NCBI GenBank assembly: GCA_018065165.1
Contig: JAGHTV010000073.1
Span: 1 to 14,543, forward strand
Direction of reading: 5' to 3'
DNA length: 14,543 nucleotides
Source of the DNA: Candidatus Sodaliphilus fimicaballi
GTDB taxonomy: Bacteria > Bacteroidota > Bacteroidia > Bacteroidales > Muribaculaceae
Below are positions 8,872 through 14,425 of the stretch, piece by piece. Both the position numbers and the translations under genes were made by a program. Within the stretch, counting starts at the first letter, position 1. The number at the start of each line of letters is the position of its first letter. The notes beneath the pieces are model-generated. The model was not told the origin of the DNA, made no database searches, and worked only from the letters and a program-made list of their open reading frames with translations.

Positions 8872-10191
8872 ATGAAGAAACAATATATAGTAGCCCTCGA
8901 GATAGGCAGTTCTAAGGTTGTGGGAGCCGTAGCCGAGAAGACTGAGCAAGGCATCGTTGTGGTGCAACATCTCGAAGAAGAGAAGCAGATTAATTGCGTG
9001 CGCTATGGCTGCGTGCAAAATGTAGAGAACATCAAGAATTGCATCAACCACATCTTGCGCAAGCTCGAGAATGCAGTTGACGGCACCATCAACCATGTGT
9101 TTGTGGGCGTGAGCGGTCGTACAGTGCATAGCGAGCCCAGCGAGATTGTGCGCAGCATCGATTCTTCTAAGACTATCTCTCGCGAGCTCATCGACTCTCT
9201 CGTGCGTGAACTGAGCAAGAACACAGTCAAGAAATATGAAACCCTGGCTGCTGTTCCTCGCACATTCTATGTCGACAAGAGAGAGATTGAGAATGTAGTG
9301 GGTCAAATAGGTTCTACCATCAAGATTCAGGCCAACCTCATCGTGGCCAACCCCACCGTGAAGCTCAACTTGGAGCGTGTGATGGGCATGGGTCTGGATG
9401 TAAAGGGATATTATATCACTGCCCTCACAATGGGTCAGCATGTGCTCACAGCCGACGAGCGTAAGCTGGGCTGTATGCTCGTTGACATGGGTGCTGAGAC
9501 TACAACAGTTTCAATATACAAGAACAGCTCTCTCATTTACCTCAACACGCTGCCACTGGGTGGCCGCACACTCACCAAGGATATCGCTAATGCATTCCCC
9601 GTGGTTGAGGAGACAGCAGAGCGCATCAAGAAGAACATCAACAATCCCCTCGACCTGTCGCAGGTTGACTCAATAGTCATTGAGGGTATCAACTCACACG
9701 AGGCTGCTAAGTACATAAGCGCTCGCACAGGCGAGATACTGGCTAATGTGAACAAGCAACTCGAATATGCCGGCGTGGGTGTGGGCGACCTCACCAGTGG
9801 CGTCGTTATTGCAGGTGGTGCTTCGCAACTCAAGGGCTTACTCAATAAGGTGGAAGATGCTACTAAGCTCAAGGTGCGTATGGCTAATTTCCCAGCAAAC
9901 CTCAACATCACAAACTCTCGCATCAACAAGCCCGAGTATGTTGAGATTCTCTCACTGCTGGCCGAGGCAGCTCAAAACATCGATCCTATGGATTCGTGCA
10001 TCGAGATGCACTCTTACAACGATGGTGGATTTGAAGTTCAAGGTCCGGCTCAACCTGTTCAGCCTGCCGAGCCCACTAAACCTGCTGAACCGCAAAAGAA
10101 AGATCCTAAGAAAAACGAGAAAAAGTCAAGTTGGATAACAGGTCTTGCTAAAAGGTTTAATAGCCTTATGGTTGATCCTGATGATGAGTAA
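8872..10191 (+). CDS. ftsA: FtsA, actin-like membrane tether of FtsZ
   Basis: Actin-family ATPase that anchors FtsZ filaments to the membrane and recruits later division proteins. Nucleotide motifs are phosphate-1 ALEIGSSKVVG (8-18), phosphate-2 LVDMGAETTT (203-212) and the adenosine motif VIAGGASQLKGL (312-323). The FtsA-specific 1C domain follows GVSGRTVHSEPSE (79-91). In phosphate-1 the usual aspartate is glutamate (E10). After the globular domain comes a Pro/Lys-rich linker (about 391-418). Next is an amphipathic segment, W421 to about M433 (WITGLAKRFNSLM), which resembles the membrane-targeting helix of other FtsA proteins. An acidic PDDE end follows it here. At 439 aa the length is near normal. 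ftsZ begins after a 53-nt spacer with no terminator, so the two are very likely cotranscribed. Confidence 0.96.
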   Translation: MKKQYIVALEIGSSKVVGAVAEKTEQGIVVVQHLEEEKQINCVRYGCVQNVENIKNCINHILRKLENAVDGTINHVFVGVSGRTVHSEPSEIVRSIDSSKTISRELIDSLVRELSKNTVKKYETLAAVPRTFYVDKREIENVVGQIGSTIKIQANLIVANPTVKLNLERVMGMGLDVKGYYITALTMGQHVLTADERKLGCMLVDMGAETTTVSIYKNSSLIYLNTLPLGGRTLTKDIANAFPVVEETAERIKKNINNPLDLSQVDSIVIEGINSHEAAKYISARTGEILANVNKQLEYAGVGVGDLTSGVVIAGGASQLKGLLNKVEDATKLKVRMANFPANLNITNSRINKPEYVEILSLLAEAAQNIDPMDSCIEMHSYNDGGFEVQGPAQPVQPAEPTKPAEPQKKDPKKNEKKSSWITGLAKRFNSLMVDPDDE

Positions 10192-10244: not shown

Positions 10245-11585
10245 ATGCGTCCAAATATAGATGACATAGCTGGTAACTCAGGTTTTGAGTCAAAGGCAAA
10301 GCAACCCACCATCATCAAGGTTGTGGGTGTAGGTGGCGGTGGTAACAACGCTATCAACCACATGTATTCACAAAACATCGAGGGAGTCTCGTTTGTCGTA
10401 ATCAATACCGACCAGCAGGCTCTCAACATGTCGCCCGTGCCCAATCGCGTGCTCATTGGTCCCAATGTGACTCACGGTCTGGGTGCTGGTATCAACCCCG
10501 AGGTGGCTCGCGAGGCTGCCGAGGAAAGTCACGAGGAGATTGCCGAGCTCTTTGACGACGATACCAAGATGGTATTCATCACTGCCGGCATGGGTGGTGG
10601 TACTGGTACAGGTGCAGCTCCCGTAGTGTCGCGCATCGCTCACGACAAGGGTGTGCTCACCATAGGTATCGTTACCATTCCGTTCCTGTTTGAGGGTCAA
10701 AAGAAGATTCTCAAGGCACTCGCTGGTGCCGACGAGATGCGTAAGTATGTCGACGCACTGCTCATCATCAACAACCAGCGCCTCATCAGCATCTACCCCG
10801 ACCTCGACTTCAACAACGCATTTGGTAAGGCCGACGACACGCTGTCGACTGCAGCACGCAGTATCAGCGAGCTCATCACTGCCGAGGGCCACATGAACCT
10901 CGACTTCAACGATGTTAACACCACACTGCGTGACGGTGGCGTAGCTATCATCAGTACTGGTTATGGCGATGGCGAGCACCGCGTGACTAAGGCTATCGAG
11001 GACGCTCTCAACTCTCCGCTGTTGAAGAATCGCGACATCTACAGCTCAAGCAAGATACTTATCAATGTATATTTCAATCCCGAGTCAAGCGAGCCATTCC
11101 AGATGAGTGAGATGAGCGAGATGGAAAACTTCATGGCCAACTTCAGCCGCGATGTGGATGTCATCACTGGTATCGCATTTGACAAGTCGCTTGAGAACAA
11201 GATTAAGATTACGGTGCTTGCTGCAGGATTTGATGTAAGCCTCACCAATGAGGCTCCTGTAGTAGAGAAGAAGCCCGAGAAGGTTACTCCCGCTCAGGTC
11301 GACGAGAAGCGCATCGTTCAGGAATATGGCGAGGAAGAGGTGAAGAAGATCGAACAAGGCAAGGCCGAGGCTCAATACATCATTCTCACACAAGATGAGA
11401 TTGAAAACGATGACCTCCTGGATATGCTCGAGAACTATCCCGCTTACAACCGCAAGCCCGAGATTAAGACTCGCATACGCAGCCTGCGCGAGACACCTCA
11501 ACAGCCTGCTAAGATTGCAACTGTAACCCCCGCTCGCAATGCGCAATCAGGCCGAGCAACCACTATCAGCTTCGACGAGGAGTAA
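10245..11585 (+). CDS. ftsZ: FtsZ, tubulin-like division GTPase (first copy)
   Basis: Tubulin-like GTPase that forms the cytokinetic ring. Core motifs are the T1 loop VGVGGGGNNA (27-36), NTD (54-56), GLGAGINPEV (78-87), the tubulin signature GGGTGTG (117-123), FEG (149-151) and the T7 loop NLDFNDV (218-224) with D220 and D223, which complete the active site of the neighbouring subunit. The GTPase and C-terminal subdomains end near 333. A charged linker of about 40-50 residues follows, then a conserved-looking module (376-403, ending PAYNR) and a 43-residue tail rich in Arg, Pro, Thr and Gln. The module is probably the FtsA-binding peptide of this group, which is inference. ftsA is directly upstream. 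A strong terminator follows 24 nt after the stop and separates it from the second ftsZ. Confidence 0.97.
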   Translation: MRPNIDDIAGNSGFESKAKQPTIIKVVGVGGGGNNAINHMYSQNIEGVSFVVINTDQQALNMSPVPNRVLIGPNVTHGLGAGINPEVAREAAEESHEEIAELFDDDTKMVFITAGMGGGTGTGAAPVVSRIAHDKGVLTIGIVTIPFLFEGQKKILKALAGADEMRKYVDALLIINNQRLISIYPDLDFNNAFGKADDTLSTAARSISELITAEGHMNLDFNDVNTTLRDGGVAIISTGYGDGEHRVTKAIEDALNSPLLKNRDIYSSSKILINVYFNPESSEPFQMSEMSEMENFMANFSRDVDVITGIAFDKSLENKIKITVLAAGFDVSLTNEAPVVEKKPEKVTPAQVDEKRIVQEYGEEEVKKIEQGKAEAQYIILTQDEIENDDLLDMLENYPAYNRKPEIKTRIRSLRETPQQPAKIATVTPARNAQSGRATTISFDEE

Positions 11586-11608
11586 TATCAGGTTACATTA
11601 ATATAGTC

Positions 11609-11647
11609 GCGTTACCGCATGAAATCATATTGCGGTAACGCTTTTTT
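11609..11647 (+). terminator. Rho-independent terminator between the two ftsZ genes
   Basis: A perfect 11-bp stem (GCGTTACCGCA at 11609-11619 with TGCGGTAACGC at 11631-11641) around an 11-nt loop is followed by six T residues (11642-11647). It lies 24 nt after the first ftsZ stop and 30 nt before the second ftsZ start. It should end the ftsQAZ transcript, leaving the second ftsZ dependent on read-through or its own promoter. Confidence 0.9.
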
Positions 11648-11677
11648 CCAACCAATTTTTAAGATTATAATTTATAA

Positions 11678-12844
11678 ATGATTGATATAGAGAATATTGC
11701 CGATTACTCAGGTTTTAGTTCGGCCGAGGCACCCCAAGCACTCATCAAGGTTGTGGGTGTGGGCGGCGGTGGCAACAATGCCGTCGATTATATGTATGGC
11801 AAGAAGGTAGAAGGTGTTACCTTTGTGCAAGTAAACACCGATAGAGATGTGCTTGCCGCATCGCCCGTACCTGCAAAGGTGTTGTTGGGTAATGGCTTGG
11901 GAGCAGGCAATCATCCCGAGGTGGGACGCGAGAAGGCCGAGACCGACAAGGAGAAGATAGAGAAGATATTTGACGACGGCACCAAGATGGTATTCATCAC
12001 AGCCTGCATGGGTGGTGGCACTGGTACTGGCGCAGCTCCCATCGTGGCCCGTGTGGCCCAGGAAAAGGGTGTGCTATCGGTGGGCATCATAACCATTCCC
12101 TTCATGTTTGAGCGTGCAACTAAGATTAAGAAAGCGCTTGAAGGAGCCATGGAGATGCGCAAGCATGTCGACGCCTTGCTCGTAATCAACAATGAGGAAC
12201 TCATCAACAACTACCCTGACATGACCATTTCACAGGCCTTTGCCAAGGCCGACGATGTGCTGGCAACGGCTACCATAAGCATCAGTGACCTGGTAACCTA
12301 CAAGGGCAAGTGGAACCTTGACTTTGAAGACGTGAAGACTACATTGCAAAAGGGTGGAGCGGCAATCATCAGCACAGGTAAGGCCAAGGGAGCCAAACGT
12401 CTTACCAATGCCTTGCAAGATGCCCTTAACTCGCCTCTGCTCAAGAAGCACGATGTGTTTAGCGCCAAGCGATTGCTCATCAACCTGTACTCTAACCCTG
12501 AGGTGGTGAAGATGGCCGAGATGCGTGAGTTTACCGACTTTATGTGCAAGTTCAGCAACGACCTGGATCCCATCATAGGCCAGACTCATGACAAGAGTCT
12601 AGGCGACGAGGTAAGGATAACTGTGCTGGCAACAGGATTTGAGATAAACCTCGAGGATGTTGACAAGCCCATTATGGTGGCCAATAGCGGTGCTCCGTTC
12701 ATGATATTGCCACGTGAGATAGATGACGAAGAGGTGATAAAGGCCATTGAAGATGTGCCCACCTATGGTCGCATCACCGGTGCCGACGATAGTAAGCCTG
12801 TAGTTGTGGCTAAGCCCAAGAAGGGTAAGGAGATTGTATTCTGA
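11678..12844 (+). CDS. Second FtsZ paralogue, short linker
   Basis: A complete FtsZ-family GTPase of 388 aa, about 60% identical to the first copy over the core by hand alignment (about 182 of 303 positions). The N-termini also match (IDDIAGNSGF and IDIENIADYSGF). It keeps VGVGGGGNNA (26-35), GGGTGTG (112-118) and the T7 loop NLDFEDV (213-219) with both catalytic aspartates (D215, D218), so polymerisation and GTP hydrolysis look possible. Differences are C110 in place of the glycine before MGGGTGTG, FER for FEG (144-146), and four residues missing just before GLGAG. After the core only about a dozen residues precede a module (339-365, ending PTYGR) related to that of the first copy. A short basic tail (KPKKGKEIVF) ends the protein. 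A clear promoter is not seen, though TATAAT lies at 11666-11671. It could be a regulator, a partner or a specialised division FtsZ. Confidence 0.93.
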   Translation: MIDIENIADYSGFSSAEAPQALIKVVGVGGGGNNAVDYMYGKKVEGVTFVQVNTDRDVLAASPVPAKVLLGNGLGAGNHPEVGREKAETDKEKIEKIFDDGTKMVFITACMGGGTGTGAAPIVARVAQEKGVLSVGIITIPFMFERATKIKKALEGAMEMRKHVDALLVINNEELINNYPDMTISQAFAKADDVLATATISISDLVTYKGKWNLDFEDVKTTLQKGGAAIISTGKAKGAKRLTNALQDALNSPLLKKHDVFSAKRLLINLYSNPEVVKMAEMREFTDFMCKFSNDLDPIIGQTHDKSLGDEVRITVLATGFEINLEDVDKPIMVANSGAPFMILPREIDDEEVIKAIEDVPTYGRITGADDSKPVVVAKPKKGKEIVF

Positions 12845-12877: not shown

Positions 12878-14425
12878 ATGAAACGCATTTATCTGGTAAT
12901 TGTAACTGTGATGCTGGCTATGTCGGCATTAGCCCAGGTGGGCGACTTGGAGCGTTCTACTCCCGCTCAAGAGGGTGTTGACCCCGCTGCTGTAGCCAAG
13001 TTTGTCGACTCGCTGCAGGTGGTTAAGAAAACCGCCATCCATCACGCTATGGTTGTGCGTCATGGCAAGGTGATAGCCGAGGTTCATCCCACGCCCTATC
13101 GTGCCCAGGACGCCCATACGCTGTACTCGTGCAGCAAGACATTTGTGTCGATGGCCATAGGCATTGCCGTGAGCGAGAACCGCTTGCATCTTGACGATCG
13201 CATTGCACTATTCTTCCCCGATAAATTGCCAAGCGTGATATCTCCCCGACTGGCCAAGATGACGGTGAAGGACGTGCTCATCATGGGTTCGGGCATCAAG
13301 CCCGACTGGGTGATGCGTAACTTTGCCGACAGCCCCGACTGGATTAAAGAGTGGCTGGCTAAACCCGTTGAACACGAGCCCGGCACGCTGTTCCAGTATG
13401 ACTCAATGTGTACCTATATGCTCTCGGCTATCGTGCAAAGGGTAACCGGCAAGACTGTACTTGAATACCTCAACGAACATGTGTTCGGTCCTATGCACAT
13501 CACCGAGGTTGACTGGGAACAGAGCCCCGACGGCATCAATACTGGTGGTTGGGGACTGCGTCTGCAAGCCGAGTCGCTAGCTAAGGTGGGTATGCTCCTC
13601 AACGCTCGCGGTAACTGGAACGGTAAGCAGCTCATTCCCGCCGAGTGGATCGACGAGGCCATTAAGCCCTACATCAACTATGCCAATGTGAAGCCTACCG
13701 ACGCTCCCAGCGACAAGAACCAGGGCTACTGCTACCAATTGTGGCGCTGCAAAGACCCACGTGCCTTCCGCGCCGATGGTGCCTTCGGCCAGTACATCGT
13801 GTGTATCCCTGAGCTCGACATAGTGGTAGTTATACTGGGTATGAGTGGCGACGGTCATGGCGAGCTGGGTTGTATATGGAACCACCTGCTGCCCGGTGTA
13901 GACAAGGAGAATGCAAAACCAGAAAAGGCACAAAAGGCCCTCGAGGCATCGTGCGCCAAGGCGTCACTTCCCATGCTTAAGGGCAAGAAAGCCGGCAAGC
14001 CCCTCCCCATTACTTTATCAGTGAGTGATGAAGATCCTCGTACTGAAAGCGGCGAAATAACTATTGACGAGAATTATAACATAACCCTGGATTGCAAGGG
14101 TATGGTTAAGGAAACCATTGCTCTGGGCAACGGCAAGTGGTTATATACCGATTTAAAAGATGTTCCTCCCAACTCAATCGAAGCCGTAGACCGCTTCAAG
14201 GGTCTCAAGCGCAACTTCCATGCTGCCGGATGCTATGCGTGGGAGAGCAAGGATGTGCTTGTTGTGCGCATTGAATATGTAAACTGGATAAGCGCCACAA
14301 CCTTTAGATTTGACTTTAAAGAAGGTACTGTAACAGTTACCGACAACTTCAACGAAGCAAAGCCCAGAACGCTATATATATGCGGAGGTTCGTACGGTCC
14401 CTACATCAACTTCACCTTCCTATAG
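12878..14425 (+). CDS. Secreted serine hydrolase, beta-lactamase/class C PBP fold (COG1680-like)
   Basis: Exported hydrolase of the serine beta-lactamase/DD-peptidase superfamily, 515 aa. Residues 1-19 form a signal peptide (basic MKR, hydrophobic core, SALA cleavage before Q20). Catalytic motifs are SxxK at S84-C85-S86-K87, the second-motif tyrosine Y174-D175-S176, and RADGAFGQ (298-305) at the position of the KTG/HxG box. GGWGLRLQAESLAKVG, GYCYQLW and ARGNWNGKQLIPAEW are typical of the family. A C-terminal all-beta-looking domain of about 150 residues has no function I recognise. The substrate cannot be told from sequence; a D-amino acid peptide or ester is possible. It starts 33 nt after the second ftsZ with no terminator between them, so cotranscription is likely. 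A cell-wall role is suggested only by the neighbourhood. Confidence 0.88.
   Translation: MKRIYLVIVTVMLAMSALAQVGDLERSTPAQEGVDPAAVAKFVDSLQVVKKTAIHHAMVVRHGKVIAEVHPTPYRAQDAHTLYSCSKTFVSMAIGIAVSENRLHLDDRIALFFPDKLPSVISPRLAKMTVKDVLIMGSGIKPDWVMRNFADSPDWIKEWLAKPVEHEPGTLFQYDSMCTYMLSAIVQRVTGKTVLEYLNEHVFGPMHITEVDWEQSPDGINTGGWGLRLQAESLAKVGMLLNARGNWNGKQLIPAEWIDEAIKPYINYANVKPTDAPSDKNQGYCYQLWRCKDPRAFRADGAFGQYIVCIPELDIVVVILGMSGDGHGELGCIWNHLLPGVDKENAKPEKAQKALEASCAKASLPMLKGKKAGKPLPITLSVSDEDPRTESGEITIDENYNITLDCKGMVKETIALGNGKWLYTDLKDVPPNSIEAVDRFKGLKRNFHAAGCYAWESKDVLVVRIEYVNWISATTFRFDFKEGTVTVTDNFNEAKPRTLYICGGSYGPYINFTFL

Follow-up and report, generated by a model that had tools for sequence, protein, structure and literature searches.

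The DNA analysed here spans positions 1 to 14,543 of contig JAGHTV010000073.1 from Candidatus Sodaliphilus fimicaballi (Bacteroidales, Muribaculaceae; assembly GCA_018065165.1), and this whole stretch of 14,543 nucleotides is called the window below. It contains two ftsZ genes, ftsZ1 and ftsZ2, which lie head to tail right behind ftsA in the division and cell wall (dcw) cluster and are separated by a hairpin. The assembly (2.46 Mb in 562 contigs, the window being contig C123) is 80% complete; when searched in this state, it gave exactly two FtsZ matches, namely these two genes. Their features, including the core of a putative C-terminal peptide (CTP) in each product, are as follows.

10245..11585, forward strand: ftsZ1, the main FtsZ (446 amino acids; TIGR00065 score 341.2 bits; short branch of 0.21 in the genus tree)
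10593..10613, forward strand: T4 loop GGGTGTG of FtsZ1 (residues 117-123), kept in 66 of 66 FtsZ1 rows
10896..10916, forward strand: T7 loop NLDFNDV of FtsZ1 (residues 218-224)
11439..11453, forward strand: CTP-like core PAYNR of FtsZ1 (residues 399-403)
11609..11647, forward strand: terminator-like hairpin between ftsZ1 and ftsZ2, 11-bp stem GCGTTACCGCA/TGCGGTAACGC followed by TTTTTT
11678..12844, forward strand: ftsZ2, the second FtsZ (388 amino acids; TIGR00065 score 309.8 bits, matched over residues 17-325)
12011..12031, forward strand: T4 loop GGGTGTG of FtsZ2 (residues 112-118)
12311..12334, forward strand: W212 and T7 loop NLDFEDV of FtsZ2 (residues 213-219)
12758..12772, forward strand: CTP-like core PTYGR of FtsZ2 (residues 361-365), then a short linker and the terminal KEIVF

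As the original prediction had stated, both genes are complete. Neither open reading frame has an internal stop, both products contain the Pfam domains Tubulin (PF00091) and FtsZ_C (PF12327), and both clear the cut-off of 295.2 bits that NCBI sets for the TIGR00065 "ftsZ" equivalog. The identity of about 60% over the core, which had been counted by hand, was an overestimate: the alignment gives 54% identity and 74% similarity over 360 aligned residues. The N-terminal extensions do match (NIDDIAGNSGF in FtsZ1, DIENIADYSGF in FtsZ2), and it was also correctly seen that GGGTGTG and the T7 aspartates are kept and that the second copy is not an obvious pseudogene. Both loops are intact in FtsZ2, and the T7 consensus N-x-D-F-x-D is found in both proteins. 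Among 12 FtsZ2 rows, the GTP-binding columns examined and the N, D and D columns of T7 are invariant, save for an assembly gap in one row, and two T7 positions next to the aspartates show slight variation (F216 in 10 of 12, V219 in 11 of 12). Two residues ahead of its T4 loop, FtsZ2 has Cys110 in place of Gly115 of FtsZ1.

The clearest signature of FtsZ2 is a tryptophan immediately before the T7 asparagine, which is present in 11 of the 12 rows. Over a total of 269 FtsZ rows it occurs in 17, one of them an ordinary FtsZ and 16 of them extra copies; the latter include the second tandem ftsZ of RUG14221, a more distant member of the order, and one extra copy in three genomes of families f31 and f69, which are placed elsewhere on the tree. 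This recurrence in separate groups of extra copies singles out one interface residue as the first candidate. The strongest deviation of FtsZ2 is located in the region from the T6 loop to H7 (0.36 versus 0.18, with 11 of 158 circular shifts equally high). We take W212 and the altered T6-H7 region to lie on the two sides at which neighbouring subunits meet.

The tail of FtsZ2 is about 60 amino acids long and carries the motif VPTYGR, by whose likeness to the FtsA-binding peptide of E. coli it is judged to be putatively of the FtsA-binding type; the CTP-like core of FtsZ1 resembles this peptide as well. The tails end differently, with PAYNR ... TTISFDEE in FtsZ1 and PTYGR ... KEIVF in FtsZ2, and in a relative (G295) the FtsZ2 tail nearly duplicates that of FtsZ1. 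An AlphaFold2 model of FtsZ2 (60-row alignment) has a mean predicted local distance difference test score (pLDDT) of 79.7. All ten-residue blocks of residues 21-320 reach values of 77-97 with one exception (61, residues 251-260), and helices are predicted at 351-358 and 362-366 within an otherwise low-confidence tail. The model has the FtsZ fold: its best PDB match is Staphylococcus aureus FtsZ (SaFtsZ), with a root-mean-square deviation of 1.5 over 306 columns, and the deviation from the KpFtsZ-ZapA entry is 1.3.

The second gene is not a peculiarity of this assembly. The possibility that it is confined to one assembly, or is an assembly artefact, is ruled out by an FtsZ2 98% identical to that of the window (P0003) on another contig (12,807 bases) and by further holders within the genus. 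At least 12 of the 101 genus genomes searched hold FtsZ2, a lower bound as many of these genomes are incomplete. In seven of the 12 it lies directly behind ftsZ1 (G000, the genome of the window, G042, G014, G304, G295, G307 and G293), in G321 it is found about 3 kb downstream of ftsZ1 on the same contig, and in four (G028, G033, G047 and G153) it occupies other loci. None of the 10 complete copies has an internal stop; the copy of G047 ends at the contig end, and that of G293 is interrupted by an assembly gap, across which the frame changes. G705, with two near-identical loci on two contigs, was excluded from the count of tandem pairs. "Muribaculaceae bacterium" and Muribaculum gordoncarteri are among the named matches listed for FtsZ2. 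A scan of named genomes gave two loci only, records near the window possibly being excluded from it, and in 39 genomes of the family the second FtsZ matches were short diverged fragments or pieces, apart from G239, a genus member with a further paralogue (FtsZ3, see below).

The pair had been regarded as an old local duplication rather than an import. The local part of this claim is supported, and distant transfer is ruled out, since FtsZ2 groups with Muribaculaceae FtsZ; an old age is tentative. In a tree of 86 rows, 11 FtsZ2 rows form one group (Shimodaira-Hasegawa-like approximate likelihood ratio test, SH-aLRT, 91), and the FtsZ1 proteins of all 12 hosts fall inside one FtsZ1 clade of 21 rows (support 83). 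The FtsZ2 group is also recovered in a tree of 43 rows (98/92). A tree constrained to unite the window-type FtsZ2 (window, G307 and G293) with its own FtsZ1 clade was 3.2 log units better and is not rejected, with a p-value of 0.56 in the approximately unbiased test (p-AU). FtsZ2 may thus stem from one old duplication followed by losses, or from two duplications whose products group together through long-branch attraction. The tree favours one old origin for all FtsZ2, short of proof.

The hairpin between the two genes has a fold z-score of -3.4, and none of 200 shuffled sequences was equally stable. It is absent from the list of a scanner that is limited to loops of 3-8. An intergenic stem of 8-19 pairs is present in all seven tandem pairs, and none of 100 single-base shuffles per pair gave one of equal length. 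A T run directly behind the stem was found in the window and in G293, and it is weak or absent in the other tandem pairs; the stem is therefore terminator-like in these two. At 51 other loci behind ftsZ1 (genus and family), a stem of at least 10 pairs within 130 bases was found in 26, 11 of them with a T-rich tail, as against one of 51 in a control with one shuffle per locus. At some other loci, ftsZ1 runs straight on into a further gene. Judging from this arrangement, ftsZ2 seems to have been inserted past the end of the dcw operon, a position that favours separate or attenuated expression. A promoter scan gave 7 candidates against 5.7 expected, which is uninformative and demonstrates no promoter.

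The neighbouring genes on either side are the following.

8872..10191, forward strand: ftsA, directly upstream of ftsZ1 (439 amino acids; C-terminal end SWITGLAKRFNSLMVDPDDE; Pfam FtsA PF14450 75.2 bits, SHS2_FTSA 30.3 bits)
12878..14425, forward strand: serine hydrolase of the beta-lactamase family (Pfam match PF00144), starting 33 bases past ftsZ2

The FtsA tail SWITGLAKRFNSLMVDPDDE is presumably a membrane helix. The other dcw genes we would name, from their sequences, murE, mraY, murD, ftsW, murG, murC and ftsQ. The serine hydrolase is probably outside the ftsZ unit. A functional tie to ftsZ2 is unsupported, as a relative of the hydrolase is absent from the other loci compared; in NCBIfam it comes closest to 3-succinylated cholic acid synthase, with a score below the cut-off (499.6 versus 800). 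Rfam, applied to the whole window at gathering thresholds, gave no known RNA element.

A separate, degenerate FtsZ of the genus, FtsZ3, was found in relatives (at L059, L060, L062, L064 and L065), outside the dcw cluster. It derives from a different duplication than FtsZ2 (tree support 100*). Its T4 loop is altered in seven of eight rows, mostly to GGETGTD, and the tail is absent; in FtsZ2 of the window both are intact. The FtsZ3 of L065 scores 220.2 bits, below the equivalog cut-off, and stops occur in some copies (G036 and one of those in G239). The islands that harbour FtsZ3 share part of their genes; taken together they contain WYL/WCX, RNase_T, PLDc and PDC-S26-like proteins (L065), and a DNA polymerase III alpha-like protein, two HAD_SAK_2 proteins and FtsK-like, MoxR and vWA proteins (L059). 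FtsZ3 possibly serves as a decoy or sensor within a defence island. In G003, the genome of L062, FtsZ1 falls in one clade and FtsZ3 in another, which points to island transfer or a misbinned contig.

The reading that we prefer, and to which we would give about an even chance, is that FtsZ2 is a tandem-duplicated true FtsZ that is expressed separately and co-assembles as a minor subunit, tuning the FtsZ1 filament. FtsZ2 would still bind and hydrolyse GTP and polymerise, and its retained tail of the FtsA-binding type would bring it to the division site. There it would join FtsZ1 filaments as the minor component and alter their dynamics, with W212 and the altered T6-H7 region possibly acting as the tuning elements. 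The intergenic hairpin would set the level of FtsZ2 apart from that of the dcw operon.

Selection on the second copy bears on the first alternative, in which FtsZ2 is a partly redundant, slowly eroding duplicate that is retained for a time by weak dosage or backup value and has no distinct role. Ratios of nonsynonymous to synonymous substitution (omega) were calculated from comparisons of up to 308 core codons. For FtsZ2, the sole unsaturated pair, G028 and G047 (213 codons, synonymous divergence dS 0.66), gave an omega of 0.051, as compared to 0.001 for FtsZ1 of the same two genomes. Between FtsZ2 of the window and that of G307, the differences at codon positions 1, 2 and 3 number 92, 53 and 160, and an omega of 1 is rejected (2dlnL 159); dS is saturated in this pair and no omega value is given. 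FtsZ2 is thus under purifying constraint that is weaker than that on FtsZ1. Relaxed selection, which had been named beforehand as a finding that would refute the prediction, is found relative to FtsZ1, but selection in the relatives is clearly purifying. Erosion would account for this difference, for the patchy presence of the gene, for its about 8-fold longer branch in the genus tree and for the fate of FtsZ3, a parallel paralogue of the genus that has indeed decayed, with an omega of 0.20-0.29 and a broken T4 loop. However, the complete copies are free of stops, the catalytic columns are intact, and the FtsZ2-specific tryptophan is conserved rather than random, and we consider erosion unlikely.

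Less probable still, in our estimate, is that FtsZ2 forms a filament of its own, unmixed with FtsZ1, which would serve a task outside ordinary septation or condition-specific division. Separate expression as suggested by the hairpin, the other loci occupied in four relatives and the changes in both longitudinal contact regions agree with such a filament, but the CTP-like tail has been retained and most holders keep the gene next to ftsZ1. A role as decoy, in which the protein would soak up FtsZ inhibitors made by phages or toxin systems, would fit the defence-type neighbours of FtsZ3, but it is highly improbable for FtsZ2, which results from a separate duplication, adjoins core division genes and is accompanied by no such defence family in the window, of whose proteins four were compared with Pfam and none with PADLOC. 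In sum, the pair is real and FtsZ2 is an uncommon form of a familiar protein; its duplication and its constraint in relatives are established, and the co-assembling minor subunit is our preferred reading of the mechanism.

With its view restricted to this locus, the original prediction was framed too narrowly: tandem and triple ftsZ genes exist in other Bacteroidales, and the genus has FtsZ3 outside the dcw cluster. We counted genomes with at least two FtsZ matches (E 1e-30) in an order sample of 393 genomes including that of the window. There were 31 among the 392 others, 20 of which have adjacent full-length arrays of two or three copies (L114-L133); the remaining 11 go back to split contigs, to short proteins or to copies far from each other. 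An FtsA match is present in 18 of the 20 array stretches. The CTP pattern is on the last copy in 19 arrays, and in G512 the order is reversed, the first copy having the pattern and the second lacking it. The 19 arrays contain 23 upstream copies, of which 22 (exception in G405) have a strong C-terminal amphipathic segment with a hydrophobic moment of at least 0.39. The CTP pattern is missing from 22 of the 23, and its lone match (G392) looks spurious. Both helices and moments are script predictions, as distinct from membrane-binding assays, and moments of 0.40-0.54 also occur in some last copies. In 119 of the 120 best-listed homologues of an upstream FtsZ from Prolixibacteraceae the moment is 0.4 or more, and a loose CTP pattern is found in 24, two of which were inspected and seem spurious. 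For the listed FtsZ matches of more than 380 amino acids from the search with the window, the figures are two of 117 and 113 of 117, respectively; the tails of FtsZ1 and FtsZ2 themselves have moments of 0.14 and 0.16.

All sampled genomes of three families (f23, five; f72, four; f106, four) contain the pair, f72 having matches named Prolixibacteraceae, Mariniphaga and Draconibacterium. In four of the five f23 genomes (L115, L121, L130 and L133) the copy with the CTP has GKGTGTG instead of GGGTGTG and the upstream copy is canonical, so a split of GTPase and FtsA-binding roles between the copies is possible there. In a tree of 53 rows, the 22 upstream copies from six families require just two changes; monophyly of the copies with amphipathic tails is not seen in the best tree and is not rejected (p-AU 0.199). 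The tandem copies of RUG14221 (L112:6896-9448) are sisters on the tree (91), and the second has GKWNLDFEDV, as in FtsZ2 of the window. L139:6123-6881 and L141:6495-7166 encode short FtsZ-like proteins with the N-terminal GTPase half only and an amphipathic-looking C-terminus, and the one-contig genome G644 (L136) has a second FtsZ of 507 amino acids that is distant from the first, with an amphipathic tail and no CTP pattern.

We tentatively propose, at somewhat less than an even chance, that Bacteroidales have repeatedly built rings of two or three FtsZ proteins behind ftsA. The upstream copy of several families would attach itself to the membrane by a C-terminal helix and the last copy would use an FtsA-binding tail, as a bacterial counterpart of the chloroplast FtsZ1/FtsZ2 ring; the window pair would have arisen independently and more recently, with its second subunit tuning the filament. 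Two intact ftsZ genes side by side call into question the common view that a bacterial ring is built from one FtsZ. As the tandem copies behind ftsA have arisen more than once in the order and are constrained where this is measurable, they provide a natural test set for heteropolymeric rings, for FtsZ that attaches directly to the membrane and for the specialisation of subunits.

No description of tandem ftsZ in Bacteroidales was found in the open PMC literature searched, in line with the original prediction, which knew of none for this group. Its surprise at a second ftsZ in the dcw cluster was also justified, as extra bacterial copies are said to sit outside this cluster (PMC9871819). From canonical FtsZ (TIGR00065), with which it shares fold, Pfam domains, GTP-binding loops, T7 loop and CTP-like tail, FtsZ2 of the window differs in its tandem position after ftsZ1, its shorter tail, the tryptophan before the T7 asparagine and the hairpin in front. 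Plant chloroplasts likewise have two FtsZ proteins of one duplication that serve one division system, but there FtsZ2 keeps the CTP and FtsZ1 has a C-terminal amphiphilic motif instead (PMC12343686), whereas both window proteins have a CTP-like core and neither has an amphipathic tail. The chloroplast arrangement rather resembles most arrays of the other Bacteroidales families. Agrobacterium tumefaciens also has several FtsZ proteins with one main form, but linker and CTP are found on the main FtsZ only (PMC13170164), unlike the CTP-like tail of the window FtsZ2. Two FtsZ proteins per cell also occur in archaea such as Odinarchaeota, as distant paralogues of which one is tethered by an N-terminal helix and the other anchored by SepF (PMC12583498). 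FtsZl1 and FtsZl2, finally, accompany a normal FtsZ as well; they have strongly diverged from it, and the C-terminal region of FtsZl2 comprises about 300 amino acids (PMC2875224), whereas the globular part of the window FtsZ2 is that of an ordinary FtsZ throughout and is followed by a far shorter tail.
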